Source of the DNA: Methanothermococcus thermolithotrophicus DSM 2095
GTDB taxonomy: Archaea > AGJL01 > Methanococci > Methanococcales > Methanococcaceae
DNA length: 64,000 nucleotides
Direction of reading: 5' to 3'
Assembly (NCBI RefSeq): GCF_946463545.1
Contig: NZ_OX296583.1
Span: 1,091,035 to 1,155,034, forward strand
In this document: one piece after another, positions 28,510 to 55,645 of the stretch
Numbering within the stretch: position 1 is the first letter of the stretch
Layout: every line of letters begins with the position of its first letter
Notes under the pieces: generated by a model
Databases searched by the model: none
Seen by the model: the letters and a program-made list of their open reading frames with translations, nothing else
Told to the model about the DNA's origin: nothing
Made by a program: the position numbers and the translations under genes

Positions 28510-30084
28510 ATGTTCAAACTCTCTTTTAAAAGAGGACAGACATCATTAGAATTATTTATACTAATGTTAGTTGTAATGCTTGGGGCTGCAGTTGTGGCTA
28601 CTGAAATGTCTAAAGTCAGTTTTGAAAGTAATACTACTACTGATATTAAATACACGACATTAGGAGCATTTGCCACTGGTGGAAGTTTTGTCTACAATGA
28701 TCACAGTGGAAAAAATACCGGAGGATATGATAAGGACAATGAAAAGGACCTTGAGGATCTACTAAAAAATGAAACAAAAGATAAGGATAAAGATGGAGAT
28801 AAGGATGTTTACGAGTTAGGGGAAGGAAGTTTATACATAGAACTAGTTGGTAATTCACATGCATTAATAACAAAAGATGAGATACCTAATGGGATATGGA
28901 TTTCAGGATATATAGAAATACCTGAAAAAGAAAAGAAAGATAAAGAAGAAGATGATAAAGAAGATGATAAAGACGACTATAGTAAGGATACTGAGAATGA
29001 TGATAAAGATAAAGAAAAAGATGATGACAAAGACAACCATAGTGCGGATAAAGATAATGATAATGACAAAGATACAGAAGACAAAAATAACGACGAAAAA
29101 GATAAGTCTAGTAATAAAGAATATCTATACAATGCCAATGGTACAATTTCAGGACACATTAAATTAAAAGGCAATGAGGAATTGTCACTGGGTCATCTAT
29201 TCACGGTTAACGAACTGGTAGTGAATGTAAAAGGAGGCGGCGGAAAAAAAGAATTTGCATCACTGGATGTTAAAGTACCTTCAATAGGTAAATTTACAAT
29301 AGGTAAATTAAAGTTAAAAGATGATGAAGAAGAGATAAAAGAAGAAAAAATAAATGGTAATGTAAAAATAAACGTAGATTCATCAAAAATAGGCGAATTC
29401 AATGTTAAAGAAATAAAAGGCGATGCAGAACTAAATATGGATTCATCAATAATAAGCGAGTTCTATGTCAAAAAAGTAGGAGGTCATGCGACTCTAACTT
29501 TTATCAACTCATATGTGGGCATATTTAATGTGCACGATAAAATAGATGGTAGCTCAAATATAATATTTGATAACACCAAAGTAGGAAACTTCGACGTAAA
29601 TAAAGAAATAAAAGGTAATGTAAAATTTATTCAATCAAATATTACCAAATGTACTGCTAAAAAAATAGACGGAGAAATGGAATTTATTAATTCAAACATT
29701 GATGATCTGATAGTTGATGATGAAGTAAAAAGCATAAAAATGACATTTAGTAATTCAAACGTGAAAAACTTTGTAGTGGCTAAAGAAATAAAAAATAAGG
29801 CAAATATCGTCTTTAGTGGTTCAAACATTACAACATTTAGAATTGAGAAAGAATTGGATGATGCAGAAATAACATTTGTTAACTCAAACGTAGGAGAGCT
29901 CTATGTTAAAAAATATAAATTAAAACATAACCTCATTACAATAGAAAATTCAAAAGTTGACAGTATTACTGTAGAAGAATGGGACGAACACAAAGACTCA
30001 GAGATAATAATTAAAAACTCACATGTTAATAGCACCTACTATGAATATGCCATAATGAACCGCAGTGGAATATTCCCAAAATAA
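28510..30084 (+). CDS. Type IV pilin-like surface protein with EF-hand-like loop and beta-solenoid
   Basis: A 524-aa secreted protein. Residues 1-30 are an archaeal class III signal peptide: KRG followed by QTSLELFIL, expected to be cut between G9 and Q10 by a prepilin peptidase, with the hydrophobic helix retained. DKDKDGDKDVYE at 91-102 fits the 12-residue EF-hand loop consensus. Residues about 139-205 are almost only Asp, Lys, Glu and Asn. From about 205 to 515 there are some dozen repeats of about 21 residues of the form NSNV-x2-F-x-V-x-KEI, which predicts a right-handed beta-solenoid. This suggests a stalk or adhesin anchored in a pilus-like assembly. I know no named relative. Confidence 0.8.
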   Translation: MFKLSFKRGQTSLELFILMLVVMLGAAVVATEMSKVSFESNTTTDIKYTTLGAFATGGSFVYNDHSGKNTGGYDKDNEKDLEDLLKNETKDKDKDGDKDVYELGEGSLYIELVGNSHALITKDEIPNGIWISGYIEIPEKEKKDKEEDDKEDDKDDYSKDTENDDKDKEKDDDKDNHSADKDNDNDKDTEDKNNDEKDKSSNKEYLYNANGTISGHIKLKGNEELSLGHLFTVNELVVNVKGGGGKKEFASLDVKVPSIGKFTIGKLKLKDDEEEIKEEKINGNVKINVDSSKIGEFNVKEIKGDAELNMDSSIISEFYVKKVGGHATLTFINSYVGIFNVHDKIDGSSNIIFDNTKVGNFDVNKEIKGNVKFIQSNITKCTAKKIDGEMEFINSNIDDLIVDDEVKSIKMTFSNSNVKNFVVAKEIKNKANIVFSGSNITTFRIEKELDDAEITFVNSNVGELYVKKYKLKHNLITIENSKVDSITVEEWDEHKDSEIIIKNSHVNSTYYEYAIMNRSGIFPK

Positions 30085-30155: not shown

Positions 30156-30941
30156 ATGACGACGATTTTAATAATGGGCGGAACAAGTGATGCCAATAAA
30201 ATAGCAGAAGAGCTTAAAAGAAAATTTAAAGATTTATTTATAATAACCACAACGACTACAGATTTTGGTGGAAGAATTGCAAGAAACTATGCCGATGAAG
30301 TAATTTCAAAGCCTTTGGATAAGGAAGAATTAAAAAAACTAATACTTGACCGAAATATTAACATTTTAATAGATGCCACACATCCATTTGCAGTAGTTGC
30401 GAGTAAAAACGCCATGGAAGTCTCAAAAGAACTAAATATCAATTACATAAGGTATGAAAGACCAGATGAAAAGTTTGATATGGAAAAATTTGGGCATAAC
30501 AATAATATCGATATTGTTTATGTTGAGGATTTTGAAGGAGCTGCAAAAAGAGCAGTTGAACTAAGTAAAAAAAATATATTCTATATGGCAGGAATTAAAA
30601 ACCTGAAAAAAATCGTAGATATAGTAGGAAAAGACAGAACAATTGCAAGAATTCTCCCGACTTCAGTTAATGAAGGTCTGGAGCTATTACCTTCAAAGAA
30701 TATTGTTGCAATGCAGGGAATATTTTCAAAAGAGCTCAACAGGTATTTAATCCAAGACTACAACTGTGATGTGATTATAACAAAGAATAGTGGGGATAGT
30801 GGAGGGTTAAAAGAAAAAGTACTTGGAGCTCTTGAAGCGGGTGCTATCCCAATAATAATCAAAAGACCAAATATGAAATATCCACATAAGTTTGAGAGTG
30901 TGGATGATCTTATAAAACATATCGAAAAACATGCCTTTTGA
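30156..30941 (+). CDS. cbiJ: Precorrin-6A/cobalt-precorrin-6A reductase
   Basis: NAD(P)H-dependent reductase of corrin-ring synthesis, needed for the cobamides of methyltransferases. The 261-aa protein begins TTILIMGGTSDANKIAEEL (Rossmann-type), with ATHPFAVVASKNAM, YIRYERP, the GIKNL and ARILPT segments and TKNSGDSGG near the end, all typical for CobK/CbiJ. ATG at 30156 is favoured; a GTG at 30138 in frame lacks a better binding site. cbiC (56301) serves the same pathway. Confidence 0.9.
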   Translation: MTTILIMGGTSDANKIAEELKRKFKDLFIITTTTTDFGGRIARNYADEVISKPLDKEELKKLILDRNINILIDATHPFAVVASKNAMEVSKELNINYIRYERPDEKFDMEKFGHNNNIDIVYVEDFEGAAKRAVELSKKNIFYMAGIKNLKKIVDIVGKDRTIARILPTSVNEGLELLPSKNIVAMQGIFSKELNRYLIQDYNCDVIITKNSGDSGGLKEKVLGALEAGAIPIIIKRPNMKYPHKFESVDDLIKHIEKHAF

Positions 30942-31048
30942 TAATATCTTATATCGTATAATTTTTCTATAATATATGTTAATTACTCCATAATTTAAAT
31001 TAGATTTTTATTTAAATATTGAATGAAAATTTGTACTTATTTTGGCAT

Positions 31049-31066
31049 CCATTCGCAGAACGACAA
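31049..31066. repeat. Solitary family B end motif
   Basis: CCATTCGCAGAACGACAA matches the family B right end. It lies in the 360-bp gap before the His-rich protein gene. No partner is visible. The rest of this gap is plain AT-rich sequence up to the promoter. Confidence 0.4.
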
Positions 31067-31221
31067 GTCCAAAACTTTCTGAACTCTTGACAAACTTTTA
31101 TTGCCTATATAAAGATCGCATATAAAGAACACCTAACACCCGTGTGATTATATTATAAAATGATTATGGCTATTTTTTAGAGATTATCACCAATAGTGGA
31201 TTAACTTTGCACAACTTAGTA

Positions 31222-31276
31222 AACCATATATACCATTATTTTTCTAAGTATATGTGTAGCTAAATTGCTACATATA
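31222..31276 (+). promoter_or_regulatory. TATA box and overlapping inverted-repeat operator candidate
   Basis: A TATA-like ACCATATATACC at 31223-31234 is followed, about 25 bases on, by an imperfect inverted repeat TATGTGTAGC-TAAATT-GCTACATATA (31251-31276). It would cover the transcription start of the gene at 31302, a normal place for an ArsR-type repressor to act. The ArsR-like gene at 32585 is the obvious candidate regulator; binding is inferred. Confidence 0.5.
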
Positions 31277-31301
31277 CAATAATAGTAAAACAGGTGGTAA
31301 A

Positions 31302-31730
31302 ATGAAGAAATTAATTGCTGGCTTGATATTTGCAACGGTGCTTATATCAAGCGTTTCAGCCTTTATGGGCTATGGCTATGATTCAAACTATGGCATAACT
31401 GAAATACTACAAAATAGTCAAGAGATTTTAAACAATGCTACATTAGTTGAAATACCTTCCCCTACAAATACAACTTACTACTCCATCACATACAATGATG
31501 AAGAAGTGGGAAAACTTTGGAAAAATGTGGATTTAAAAGAGCTTACAATAGGCGATCCTCGATTCACAATGTGGGGGGTTGTAGTTCCGTTATACTCTAG
31601 CCTTGAAGAATATGTAGGTAACCTGTACCTAGATTGGACAAATTATGGATCTTACGGAAGAGGATATCCAATGGGTCATATGGGTCATTATGGTTACAAT
31701 CACGGTCCGCAATGGTGCCACAATTATTAA
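31302..31730 (+). CDS. Secreted His/Tyr/Gly-rich protein, possible metal binder
   Basis: A 142-aa protein with a clear Sec signal peptide (KKLIAGLIFATVLISSVSA, cleavage after about residue 20). The mature part contains NATL and NTTY N-glycosylation sequons. Its C-terminal 27 residues are rich in His, Tyr, Gly, Met and one Cys (GHMGHYGYNHGPQWCHNY). That tail is suited to copper, nickel or zinc binding. I do not recognise a family. GGTGGTAAA precedes the ATG. It leads a run of four small same-strand genes that ends with an ArsR-type regulator. Confidence 0.65.
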   Translation: MKKLIAGLIFATVLISSVSAFMGYGYDSNYGITEILQNSQEILNNATLVEIPSPTNTTYYSITYNDEEVGKLWKNVDLKELTIGDPRFTMWGVVVPLYSSLEEYVGNLYLDWTNYGSYGRGYPMGHMGHYGYNHGPQWCHNY

Positions 31731-31887
31731 CTATCATATAATTTTTTAAGCATGTGAAAGATGGCATATTGATTAGATCTATTATATAAGGCCTGCTAGG
31801 GGATACTATCTACAATACTAACCTATTAACGTAATGGCATTAGAATATTAATATATGATTTAAATAAATGCGAGAAGGGACCATATT

Positions 31888-31998
31888 ATGAATTCAATAC
31901 TTACAACAATCTTGTTAATTGCTGGGATTGCTTTATTGGCATGGGTATTCACCAGGGGGAGACATGGAAGCAAACATGGAAAAAGAGGGTGTTGTTGA
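31888..31998 (+). CDS. 36-aa membrane peptide with basic/His and Cys-Cys tail
   Basis: ATG AAT TCA... encodes one membrane helix (SILTTILLIAGIALLAWVF) followed by TRGRHGSKHGKRGCC and a stop. The layout resembles the very small Cys-tailed membrane peptides found next to metal transporters such as FeoB, but no direct match is claimed. A weak binding site (GAAGGGA) lies about 12 bases upstream. The His and vicinal Cys residues echo the metal-binding look of the preceding gene. Confidence 0.45.
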   Translation: MNSILTTILLIAGIALLAWVFTRGRHGSKHGKRGCC

Positions 31999-32062
31999 GA
32001 GTAGTTCAAAACCCAGTAAAATTTAGCCATATCTTAGTAAATATTAAAATATGCTATTTTTT

Positions 32063-32077
32063 GGGGAGAACTTCCCC
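32063..32077 (+). terminator. Small GC-rich hairpin
   Basis: GGGGAGAACTTCCCC, stem GGGGA/TCCCC, stands out in AT-rich surroundings 65 bases after the 36-aa gene, with T runs just before it. Possibly a terminator or attenuator within the small-gene cluster. Confidence 0.35.
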
Positions 32078-32120
32078 ATTATTTAATATATCACTCAATT
32101 TAACTAAATGTGTTTTTATA

Positions 32121-32212
32121 TAAATGTTCTGCAATATATGCTAGTTATCTGATTGATTTAACCTGTTTTTTTGAACTTATGTTTTTATAACCTCCATTCG
32201 CAGAACGAATGT
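32121..32212. mobile_element. Possible short family B element
   Basis: ATGTTCTGCAATA near 32125 and ATTCGCAGAACGAAT near 32197 are inverted copies of the family B end (GTTCTGC / GCAGAAC core), 70-80 bp apart. The outer TATAGTCG bases are not preserved, so this copy is degenerate. It lies in the 310-bp gap before the membrane/coiled-coil gene; the remainder of that gap shows only TATA-like ATTATATAAAG at 32242. Confidence 0.35.
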
Positions 32213-32306
32213 ATTGTGGTATCTACATATAGCGCTACCAAAATTATATAAAGTCGGCCAATGATACTACTCTAACAAATTGGGATTAATATATGTGAGT
32301 TGGGTG

Positions 32307-32543
32307 ATGAATGTGTTCCAATATGGCCGAGATATTATAGATTATTGCGGGATTGGAGGTTATGGAGGGGATGTTATGTTTATAGTGTCATTATTGTTTA
32401 TTGGAATTATTGCATTGTTGGCATATTTAATATTCAAAAAGCCAAGTTCAGACAATGAAAGACTGGTAAAGATAGAAAAAGATGTTGAAGAAATAAAAGA
32501 AACTGTAAAGGAATTGAAGAAAAAATGGGATGAAATTGAGTAA
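32307..32543 (+). CDS. Small membrane protein with C-terminal coiled coil
   Basis: About 78 aa: a Gly/Tyr-rich lead (GIGGYGGD), one membrane helix (VMFIVSLLFIGIIALLAYLIF), then a charged heptad-type helix (ERLVKIEKDVEEIKETVKEL). It resembles the short Gly-rich one-helix proteins that often neighbour metal or redox regulators, with a coiled coil where many have a SHOCT segment. The start is uncertain: ATG 32307, GTG 32313 and ATG 32376 are all possible, the last having the strongest ribosome binding site (GGAGGGG). It is followed at once by the ArsR-type gene. Confidence 0.6.
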   Translation: MNVFQYGRDIIDYCGIGGYGGDVMFIVSLLFIGIIALLAYLIFKKPSSDNERLVKIEKDVEEIKETVKELKKKWDEIE

Positions 32544-32584
32544 AATGGTTTTTTATTTGATGGATAACATATTTTGTGGTTTTT

Positions 32585-32905
32585 ATGAATTTAGGACCTA
32601 ATGAGGAACAAAGTAAGGGACGGCACTCAATAGATGAAATAATTAAAATAAGTGATGCCCTGTCAAACAATATGCGTATTAAAATATTACATCTACTAAA
32701 TCAAAAACCATGGAATATATATGAACTGGCAAAAGCTCTTAACTTGTCCAGGCCTGTTGTTTATGCTCACTTAAAGAAATTAGAGGAGGCCGATTTAGTT
32801 GAGAGCGATTTAGTTTTAGATGATGCTAGAGCAAAAAGAATATATAAAGCAAAAAAATTCAGATTTGAGATAGATAACGATATGATAGATAAATTGTTTG
32901 AATAA
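32585..32905 (+). CDS. ArsR-type winged-helix transcriptional regulator
   Basis: A 106-aa DNA-binding protein. The winged-helix core is KISDALSNNMRIKILHLLNQKPWNIYELAKALNLSRPVVYAHLKKLEEADLVES, with the recognition helix at SRPVVYAHL. The metal-binding ELCVCDL of classical ArsR/SmtB is not present (IYELAKA instead), so the signal sensed is unknown. It ends the small-gene run and may bind the inverted repeat at 31251. A GTG nine bases upstream of the ATG is also in frame. Confidence 0.8.
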   Translation: MNLGPNEEQSKGRHSIDEIIKISDALSNNMRIKILHLLNQKPWNIYELAKALNLSRPVVYAHLKKLEEADLVESDLVLDDARAKRIYKAKKFRFEIDNDMIDKLFE

Positions 32906-32945
32906 ATTTAATATATTGAACAAAAATATTCAAATATGGGTAAAA

Positions 32946-34337
32946 TTAGAGTTTACTAAACTCCTCTATACTTTCATACAGCTTTTCACAGAGGAATTTA
33001 ATTTCATCTTCTGTTATTGATAGAGGAGGAACGAGTATAATGGTGTTAAATATAGGCCTCATGTAAATTCCCTTTTGTAATAGTATCTCTGCAACTTTAT
33101 ATCCTGCTTTGTATTCATAAGGATAAGGTTCTTTTGTTTTTTTGTCCTTTACAAGTTCAATTCCAACCATAAATCCTTTTTTCCTAATGTCTCCTACATT
33201 TTCCAGTTCTTTGAGTTTTTCCAGTTCCTCATGGAACAGTTTTATTTTTGGCTGGATTTTTTCAAATATTTTATCCTGTTCTATGATATCCAATGTTGCA
33301 ATTCCTGCAGAACATAGTATTTGATTTCCAGTGTAGGTATGGCCATGGAAGAATTGTTTACACTCTTCAAAATCTCCTAAAAATGCGTTGTAGATTTCCT
33401 CAGTCGTCATAGTAACTGCCAATGGCAAATATCCCCCAGTTATTCCTTTTCCAAGACATATTATATCTGGTTTTTCTAACTTTTTAAGTTCTTCATTGTC
33501 TGAATACAATAGTTTCCCAGTTCTTCCAAAGGTTGCCACCTCATCGAGTATAAATATTATATCGTGTTCCTTACAGGTTTTTGCAACCTCTTCAATGTAC
33601 CCTTCAGGATATGGTATCATCCCAGCAGACCCCATCATTCCTCCTTCGAATATTACGCAAAATACTTCATCCTTATGTTTTTCAATTAAATCCTTCATGT
33701 TTTCAAGGCATTTCATATCGCAGCCTTTTTCGTTTCTTTCGTCGGTGTCTTTGAAATTGTGGTGTTTACACCTGTAGCAGTATGGTGTTTCTGCATAGTA
33801 TCCTTTAAAGAGCAGAGGTTTAAAATATCCGTGAAATGTTTCGCTTCCCCCAACACTCATAGCTCCTATGGTATCTCCATGGTAGCCTTCCTTAACAGAG
33901 ATGAATTTGTTTCTTTTACTAGATTTTCCTTCTTTTAGCAGGTAATACTCAAATGCCATTTTAACGGCAATCTCTACAGCTTCGGCACCATCTTCTGAAT
34001 AAAATACTTTTTTAAGATGTTCTGGTGTAATATCTACCAATTTTTTTGCTAAAACCGCTGAAGGGACATTCCCACATCCTAAAAGTGTTGAATGACAAAT
34101 TTTTTCAGTCTGATTTTTTATGGCATCGATAATTCTCTTTTCACCATGTCCAAACATGTTGCACCATATTGAAGAAACTGCATCCAAATATTTTTTACCA
34201 TGGATATCGATTAAATAATTCCCTTCACCTTTTTCAATTATTAAATTCTTTGAATTTTCATATTCTTTCATCTGTGTATATGGATGCCAAATATACTCTT
34301 TATCCCATCTGTCTATCAAGTTAGGATCAATTTTCAT
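32946..34337 (-). CDS. bioA: Adenosylmethionine-8-amino-7-oxononanoate aminotransferase
   Basis: PLP enzyme of biotin synthesis that uses SAM as amino donor. The 463-aa sequence has WHPYTQMKEYE, AVSSIWCNMFGHG, FYSEDGAEAVEIAVKMA, ILDEVATFGRTG and the PLP lysine in ICLGKGITGGYLP (about 296), and HGHTYTGNQ. This matches BioA rather than other class III aminotransferases. The rest of the biotin operon is not here. GAGGTGATTGT precedes the ATG. Confidence 0.94.
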   Translation of the reverse strand: MKIDPNLIDRWDKEYIWHPYTQMKEYENSKNLIIEKGEGNYLIDIHGKKYLDAVSSIWCNMFGHGEKRIIDAIKNQTEKICHSTLLGCGNVPSAVLAKKLVDITPEHLKKVFYSEDGAEAVEIAVKMAFEYYLLKEGKSSKRNKFISVKEGYHGDTIGAMSVGGSETFHGYFKPLLFKGYYAETPYCYRCKHHNFKDTDERNEKGCDMKCLENMKDLIEKHKDEVFCVIFEGGMMGSAGMIPYPEGYIEEVAKTCKEHDIIFILDEVATFGRTGKLLYSDNEELKKLEKPDIICLGKGITGGYLPLAVTMTTEEIYNAFLGDFEECKQFFHGHTYTGNQILCSAGIATLDIIEQDKIFEKIQPKIKLFHEELEKLKELENVGDIRKKGFMVGIELVKDKKTKEPYPYEYKAGYKVAEILLQKGIYMRPIFNTIILVPPLSITEDEIKFLCEKLYESIEEFSKL

Positions 34338-49496: not shown

Positions 49497-49500
49497 AAGT

Positions 49501-55524: not shown

Positions 55525-55645
55525 TATAGTCGTTCTGCGAATGTATGCATATAAGTATTATCTAATTTCAATTATGTATTGTTTAAAAACTTCCATAATT
55601 TAAAATTAAGTAATATAACAATCGCTTAATTGCAGAACGACTATA
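55525..55645. mobile_element. Inverted-repeat element (family B, best copy)
   Basis: TATAGTCGTTCTGC at the left and GCAGAACGACTATA at the right are exact complements (14 bp), bounding a 121-bp AT-rich element with no ORF. It lies in the 430-bp gap before the HIT gene. The remainder of this gap (55646-55893) shows only AT-rich sequence and a short inverted pair TTTCTTTTTCGG / TTTTGAAATAG without clear meaning. Confidence 0.65.

Follow-up and report, generated by a model that had tools for sequence, protein, structure and literature searches.

A candidate membrane-linked switch, built from an ArsR-fold regulator and a one-helix coiled-coil protein, in a small gene cluster of Methanothermococcus thermolithotrophicus, with a palindromic operator recurring in distant lineages

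The 64,000-nucleotide window analysed here (contig C1:1091035-1155034 of the 1.7-Mb single-contig genome of Methanothermococcus thermolithotrophicus DSM 2095) contains four small genes on one (+) strand, in the order secreted protein, 36-aa open reading frame (ORF), one-helix coiled-coil protein and winged helix-turn-helix (HTH) protein (Table 1). Comparison with other genomes points to a two-gene transmembrane switch, composed of a ligand-free ArsR-fold repressor and a one-helix coiled-coil protein. The switch would be common to archaea and Firmicutes with a nearly unchanged operator (YATRTGTAR-N7/8-YTACAYATR), and would pass metal or redox signals from the envelope on to DNA with neither a phosphorelay nor a metal site in the regulator. 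We give this interpretation about an even chance of being correct. The original prediction, which was made from the sequence alone, described four features in this order on one strand as a metal-related module, and all were found where it placed them. The view of the cluster as a module was borne out by the conservation of the gene pair and the operator elsewhere. The module extends beyond the four genes to a paralogous cluster elsewhere in this genome and to operons that are unlinked in relatives.

When bacterial and archaeal genomes were scanned with an alignment of the HTH protein, 73 loci were identified. A coiled-coil gene adjoined the HTH gene in all 23 loci from Methanocaldococcus, Thermococcales, Archaeoglobales and one Aquificota-labelled contig, and in 34 of the 36 loci from Methanoperedens and its relatives and from Methanosarcinaceae; the paired genes in these two groups mostly overlapped or were ≤30 nt apart. 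A one-transmembrane (TM) coiled-coil ORF of 59-88 aa followed the HTH gene in each of the 11 Bacilli loci. The coil gene precedes the HTH gene in Methanococcales, and the reverse order predominates elsewhere. The coil in the window, LVKIEKDVEEIKETVKELKKKWDEIE, has a hydrophobic residue at every a/d position over four heptads (a longer in-frame ORF spans 32280-32543), and the Lys pair that follows the membrane helix suggests that the coil is cytosolic. A search for the gene set in other archaea had been proposed at the outset, with a lack of co-occurrence counting against the module; co-occurrence was found. A functional partnership between the HTH and coil proteins is probable from this conserved adjacency.

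The inverted repeat that had been noted over the likely start site of the first gene is a genuine operator candidate, as judged by comparison with the paralogous cluster and with relatives. It was first read as TATGTGTAGC-TAAATT-GCTACATATA and ends 25 nt before the secreted gene. The chance expectation of the repeat with ≤3 mismatches is 0.01 per 64 kb, and it was found at this one place, as a hit on both strands. The core palindrome with ≤2 mismatches is present at two places only in the 1.7-Mb genome, each upstream of a regulator-bearing cluster; the second match, TATGTGTAGTAAAAATACTACATATA, lies upstream of the larger paralogous cluster. Given the TATA-box-like sequence at 31225, transcription of the secreted gene would start inside the operator.

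The secreted-gene homologue of five Methanocaldococcus-type genomes is unlinked to the HTH gene, and a matching palindrome is present exactly 25 nt before it in all five. Two of these genomes (L214 and L215) also have a separate coil-HTH operon with its own operator copy. The weak operator-like site before the coil-HTH genes of the window, which is the second best in 30901-33000 (15 of 18 positions), resembles these coil-operon sites. A related site, YATRTGTAA-N7/8-TTACAYATR, precedes module genes in Thermococcales, Archaeoglobales, Methanoperedens and Bacilli. Sites of the form CATATGTAA-N8-TTACATATG (N7 in Methanoperedens) are located ~15-28 nt before, or overlap the predicted start of, their target genes, which encode DUF2202, secreted, DUF4405 and Met-rich PepSY proteins; in Bacilli, the operator overlaps the start of the HTH gene. 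Strict scans identified 14 sites in 12 of 23 loci, 18 sites in 17 of 36 loci and three sites in three of 11 Bacilli loci, with no sites in shuffled sequence. Across whole genomes of Thermococcales, Archaeoglobales and Bacilli, 1-3 sites were present at ≤2 mismatches, compared to 0-1 in the reversed control. The two-mismatch scan alone was not above the control in the AT-rich Methanococcales, and the argument there thus rests on position and on closer matches. A literature search found no report of this operator.

The recognition helix of the HTH protein and base 9 of the operator half-site vary together. The HTHs with SRPxxY[A/T]H in the helix pair with G or T at this base, while those with YLH pair with A in 51 of 53 rows (some loci being one place fetched twice), the two exceptions being weak, chance-like sites. 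The Aquificota-labelled contig (L088) has the Ala helix together with a CTACATATG half-site. As lineage confounds the comparison, the covariation supports but does not prove binding of the site by the HTH protein. Overall, the comparative evidence makes it very probable that the HTH protein recognizes this operator. Contig L088 also carries bacterial-looking rpoC and ribosomal L19 genes; its module (L088:6885-8945) comprises DUF2202, coil, HTH and DUF4405 genes with a Methanococcales-type helix and half-site, and a transfer between archaea and bacteria is likely.

The regulator matched Pfam HTH_5 with 50.8 bits (cut-off of 22), which assigns it to the winged-HTH ArsR-family fold. The curated metalloregulator model NF033788 (cut-off of 55) scored below its threshold for this protein (46.7 bits), its paralogue (48.7 bits) and a Bacilli member (43.2 bits). 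No conserved Cys or alpha-5 His ligands were identified among 103 HTH sequences; 45 of these have no Cys at all, and the sole invariant His is that of the recognition helix. Unusual metal sites are beyond the reach of such reading. Direct metal sensing by the HTH protein is unlikely, since the ArsR/SmtB metal sites are absent and the score is below the metalloregulator cut-off; the earlier assignment to the ArsR type thus holds for the fold and is not supported for a direct metal sensor. The module shares with the ArsR/SmtB metalloregulators the winged-HTH fold, a palindromic operator over the promoter and ligand-rich target genes, but differs in the lack of conserved metal ligands and in an obligate-looking membrane partner. 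Classical sensing, in which the HTH protein would bind metal and leave the operator and the coil protein would be no more than a further target, for example a small anchor or carrier of metal, would fit the fold and the ligand-rich targets. It is improbable in view of the Cys-free HTHs, the position of the invariant His and the low metalloregulator scores, and it leaves the strict pairing with a membrane coiled coil unexplained.

A closer parallel is provided by SdpR/SdpI of Bacillus subtilis, in which an ArsR-type autorepressor is sequestered by a membrane receptor (PMC1626106). In both cases, the ArsR-fold repressor needs no metal ligand and a membrane-protein gene is adjacent. Autoregulation is also likely here, the operator being present at the Bacilli HTH gene and before the Methanocaldococcus coil-HTH operon. 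However, the SdpR model NF033789 gave scores of 37.3 and 42.2 bits, far below the cut-off of 100, SdpI is a polytopic receptor whereas the proteins here have 66-88 aa and one hydrophobic helix, and the SdpI/SdpR signal is a toxin. The module does not qualify as an SdpRI system on sequence or receptor type, nor as a classical metalloregulator on ligands, and its logic is closest to that of SdpRI. Two literature candidates were rejected. The Cd/Ni-induced ArsR genes of Thermococcus gammatolerans (PMC3407056), considered as expression evidence, seem to be other regulators, and the genome taken as that species has no HTH orthologue. For CdsR of Bacillus thuringiensis (PMC11009283), no membrane partner of this kind is among the described neighbours.

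Profiles built from the loci showed the recurrent members of the regulon to be the secreted ligand-tailed family, ferritin-like DUF2202 proteins (PF09968), DUF4405 proteins (PF14358), CW_binding_2 proteins (PF04122) and NapH-like Fer4_5 proteins. The NapH-like proteins are distant relatives of CcoG, which is linked to copper reduction; this serves as a lead only. The secreted protein of the window has homologues with 27-32% identity. Its predicted structure has a core at residues ~29-112 with a high predicted local distance difference test score (pLDDT) and a tail, TNYGSYGRGYPMGHMGHYGYNHGPQWCHNY, with a pLDDT <50, which contains four His, two Met and one Cys. No Pfam match and no PDB fold match at E 0.001 were found for this protein. 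Ligand-rich tails recur as His/Cys in Methanococcales, GHGHGHGGG in one Archaeoglobales member and Met-rich sequence in Methanoperedens. The Methanoperedens target is Met-rich, contains a PEMGPNM motif that is conserved, has two PepSY domains by prediction and is followed by a protein disulfide oxidoreductase. It thereby resembles PepSY secreted proteins (the YpeB C-terminal domain, 5boi; CD1622, 4exr) and lies behind the same operator. The secreted protein of the window, for which neither a PepSY profile (Pfam) nor a PepSY fold (PDB at E 0.001) was found, is comparable in role and operator only.

The paralogous cluster (~C1:1273515-1279180) encodes two CW_binding_2-type secreted proteins, a DUF2202 lipoprotein, a Cys-containing secreted protein, a coiled-coil protein, an HTH paralogue and a NapH-like polyferredoxin; no clear DUF4405 gene was identified in it. 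The polyferredoxin gene (L144:4967-5678, ~C1:1278466-1279177) is split over two frames and is intact in a related genome (G004), and represents either a decayed gene or a sequencing error.

Two further groups of genes were observed behind operator-like sequences. In a Methanosarcinaceae locus matched by motif only (L201:1501-2458), an operator-like site precedes an unlinked gene for a secreted Gly/Met-rich protein, and the second gene encodes a Met-rich one-TM coiled-coil protein (MNHMMGYGGYGMGGGG...). In two Methanocaldococcus-type genomes, very Cys-rich small secreted proteins, e.g., CCNECNNEYCNENCYCKNEECCQYCHC, are encoded just downstream of the operator and divergently from coil-HTH (L153:4249-4575 and L154:5816-6085).

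A partial precedent is the arCOG04002 neighbourhood, described in a passage of Makarova et al. 2015 (PMC5898192) as moderately conserved in Thermococci, with DUF4405, ferritin-like, ArsR, secreted and coiled-coil proteins, and proposed there to function in iron-dependent electron transfer. An ArsR regulator and a small coiled-coil protein are present both in the window and in the DUF4405/DUF2202 loci of Thermococcales, a match by description and not by arCOG number, and on that description the neighbourhood appears to be the Thermococcal form of the module. The window cluster differs in having no DUF4405 or ferritin-like gene beside it. The passage itself is silent on an operator, on an HTH-coil signalling unit and on a regulon that spans lineages, and it draws no connection to Methanococcales, Methanoperedens or Bacilli. 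Within the literature library searched, no other paper with those arCOG names was found, and no papers on DUF2202, MJ1325 or guessed M. jannaschii locus names.

The proposed role in metal capture or sensing gains from the ligand-rich tails, which recur across the regulon, and is weakened by the recurrence of redox proteins. The regulon could instead serve envelope redox defence, with oxygen, peroxide or another oxidant at the membrane as the signal and the same HTH-coil switch. It would then form an outward electron chain in which a NapH-like or DUF4405 protein donates to a secreted ferritin-like diiron protein of the DUF2202 family, with the ligand-rich tails being secondary. The recurrence of these three families in the clusters, the protein disulfide oxidoreductase behind the Methanoperedens pair and the electron transfer proposed in the Thermococcal passage cited above argue for such a chain. 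However, an electron carrier of this kind is missing from the window cluster and from the Methanoperedens target, both of which do have ligand-rich secreted proteins, and we consider redox defence a serious but rather unlikely explanation. Alternatively, membrane or cell-surface damage of any cause would be sensed, and the ligand-rich proteins would be structural surface-layer or wall-associated components, not metal binders. The CW_binding_2 domains and the absence of metal-ligand genes adjacent to the Bacilli pair fit this proposal, to which we assign a low probability, as His-, Cys- and Met-rich compositions arose in the targets repeatedly and independently.

The interpretation that we prefer is a membrane-relieved autorepressor controlling envelope soft-metal or redox defence, and as a whole it stands at roughly one chance in two. 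An autorepressor relieved via a membrane partner is suggested by the near-invariant membrane neighbour and by the operator over the promoter. The ArsR-fold protein would repress its own synthesis from the 26-bp palindrome over the start site, and the one-TM coiled-coil protein would be its dedicated membrane partner. An envelope signal would be received by the short outer N-terminus or the helix of this partner, and the cytosolic coiled coil would sequester or release the repressor in the manner of SdpI/SdpR. Derepression would lead to the synthesis of secreted proteins whose tails carry metal ligands; in other clusters, the products would be ferritin-like DUF2202 proteins, electron-transfer proteins of the NapH or DUF4405 type, CW_binding_2 proteins and PepSY proteins rich in Met. 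All of these would bind, or detoxify by redox chemistry, an agent present outside the membrane, for which a soft metal such as Cu(I) is the likeliest candidate. Repression is the likely mode of the regulator. We infer the relay through the coiled coil with moderate confidence and the identity of the ligand weakly; a soft-metal signal is a possibility with somewhat less than an even chance, and a redox signal is a more doubtful one. Several points weigh against the model. Approximately half of the loci have no strict operator near the HTH gene, in some cases through contig ends. The helix-base covariation follows lineage and is hence no independent proof. The single-TM nature and topology of the partner are predictions. 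Finally, redox proteins equal ligand-rich ones in their frequency in the regulon.

The gaps between the four genes are 157, 308 and 41 nt, which makes one common transcript uncertain. The 36-aa ORF is the weakest element and is not a conserved part of the cluster, in which it had originally been included. Its end, given as His-Lys-Arg-Gly-Cys-Cys, is ...SKHGKRGCC. Outside its own genome, no homologue better than E = 0.009 was found, and that match has an internal stop; the peptide was therefore rejected as a conserved gene. In Methanocaldococcus operons, an unrelated small Cys/His membrane protein occupies the same slot. Chance neighbours with a fortuitous palindrome would fit the two larger gaps and the dispersed-repeat copies in the region, but this is highly improbable given the conservation of the operator and gene pair, which contradicts it for the operator, secreted gene, coiled coil and HTH, the 36-aa ORF being excepted.

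Table 1. Positions of the cluster elements in the window.
Feature	Position	Strand	Evidence
TATA-box-like CATATATACC of the secreted gene	31225-31234	+	Read from sequence; putative promoter role
26-bp palindromic operator candidate TATGTGTAG-N8-CTACATATA, spacer CTAAATTG	31251-31276	.	Comparative
Secreted 142-aa protein: signal peptide, folded core, disordered His/Met/Cys tail	31302-31730	+	Homologues, predicted structure
36-aa ORF, one predicted membrane helix; uncertain gene	31888-31998	+	ORF only
Weak second operator-like site CGAATGTAT-N8-CTACATATA before the coil-HTH genes	32206-32231	.	Weak
78-aa one-TM coiled-coil protein, proposed regulator partner	32307 (ATG, best start)-32543	+	Conserved HTH neighbour; four-heptad coil
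ArsR-fold winged-HTH regulator, no conserved metal ligands	32585-32905	+	Pfam HTH_5, 73 related loci

The flanking genes, encoding a CbiJ-type precorrin-6x reductase upstream and BioA downstream on the opposite strand, look unrelated to the cluster. Rfam and tRNA scans of the window gave no matches. A dispersed repeat, CATTCGCAGAACGA(CTATA), was present at 31050-31063, 32195-32208 and 55530-55543, with weaker copies near 49500 and 55627. The genome contains 10 exact copies and 12 with one mismatch, and none of the reversed control, and the repeat is not module-specific, as it is genome-wide. Most copies seem to lie between genes, and they are often opposed within ~100 nt by an inverted partner, e.g., TCGTTCTGCAATTA; a search for exact paired elements at 50-80 nt spacing found none. 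The repeat may be either regulatory or similar to a miniature inverted-repeat transposable element (MITE-like). A 524-aa protein encoded at 28510-30084 has a class III (archaeal pilin-like) signal peptide match below the cut-off and a long Asp/Lys-rich stretch.

How many archaea sense conditions outside the membrane is poorly understood, and the module is a minimal testable candidate for such sensing: it comprises a pair of small genes, one defined 26-bp site and few targets, and it recurs in distant lineages. The change in recognition code (Leu to Ala/Thr with A to G) is directly testable. Furthermore, the module would provide many uncharacterised secreted families of vent archaea and methane oxidisers with a shared regulatory identity; these include DUF2202, CW_binding_2 and Met-rich PepSY proteins and those with His/Met/Cys tails.
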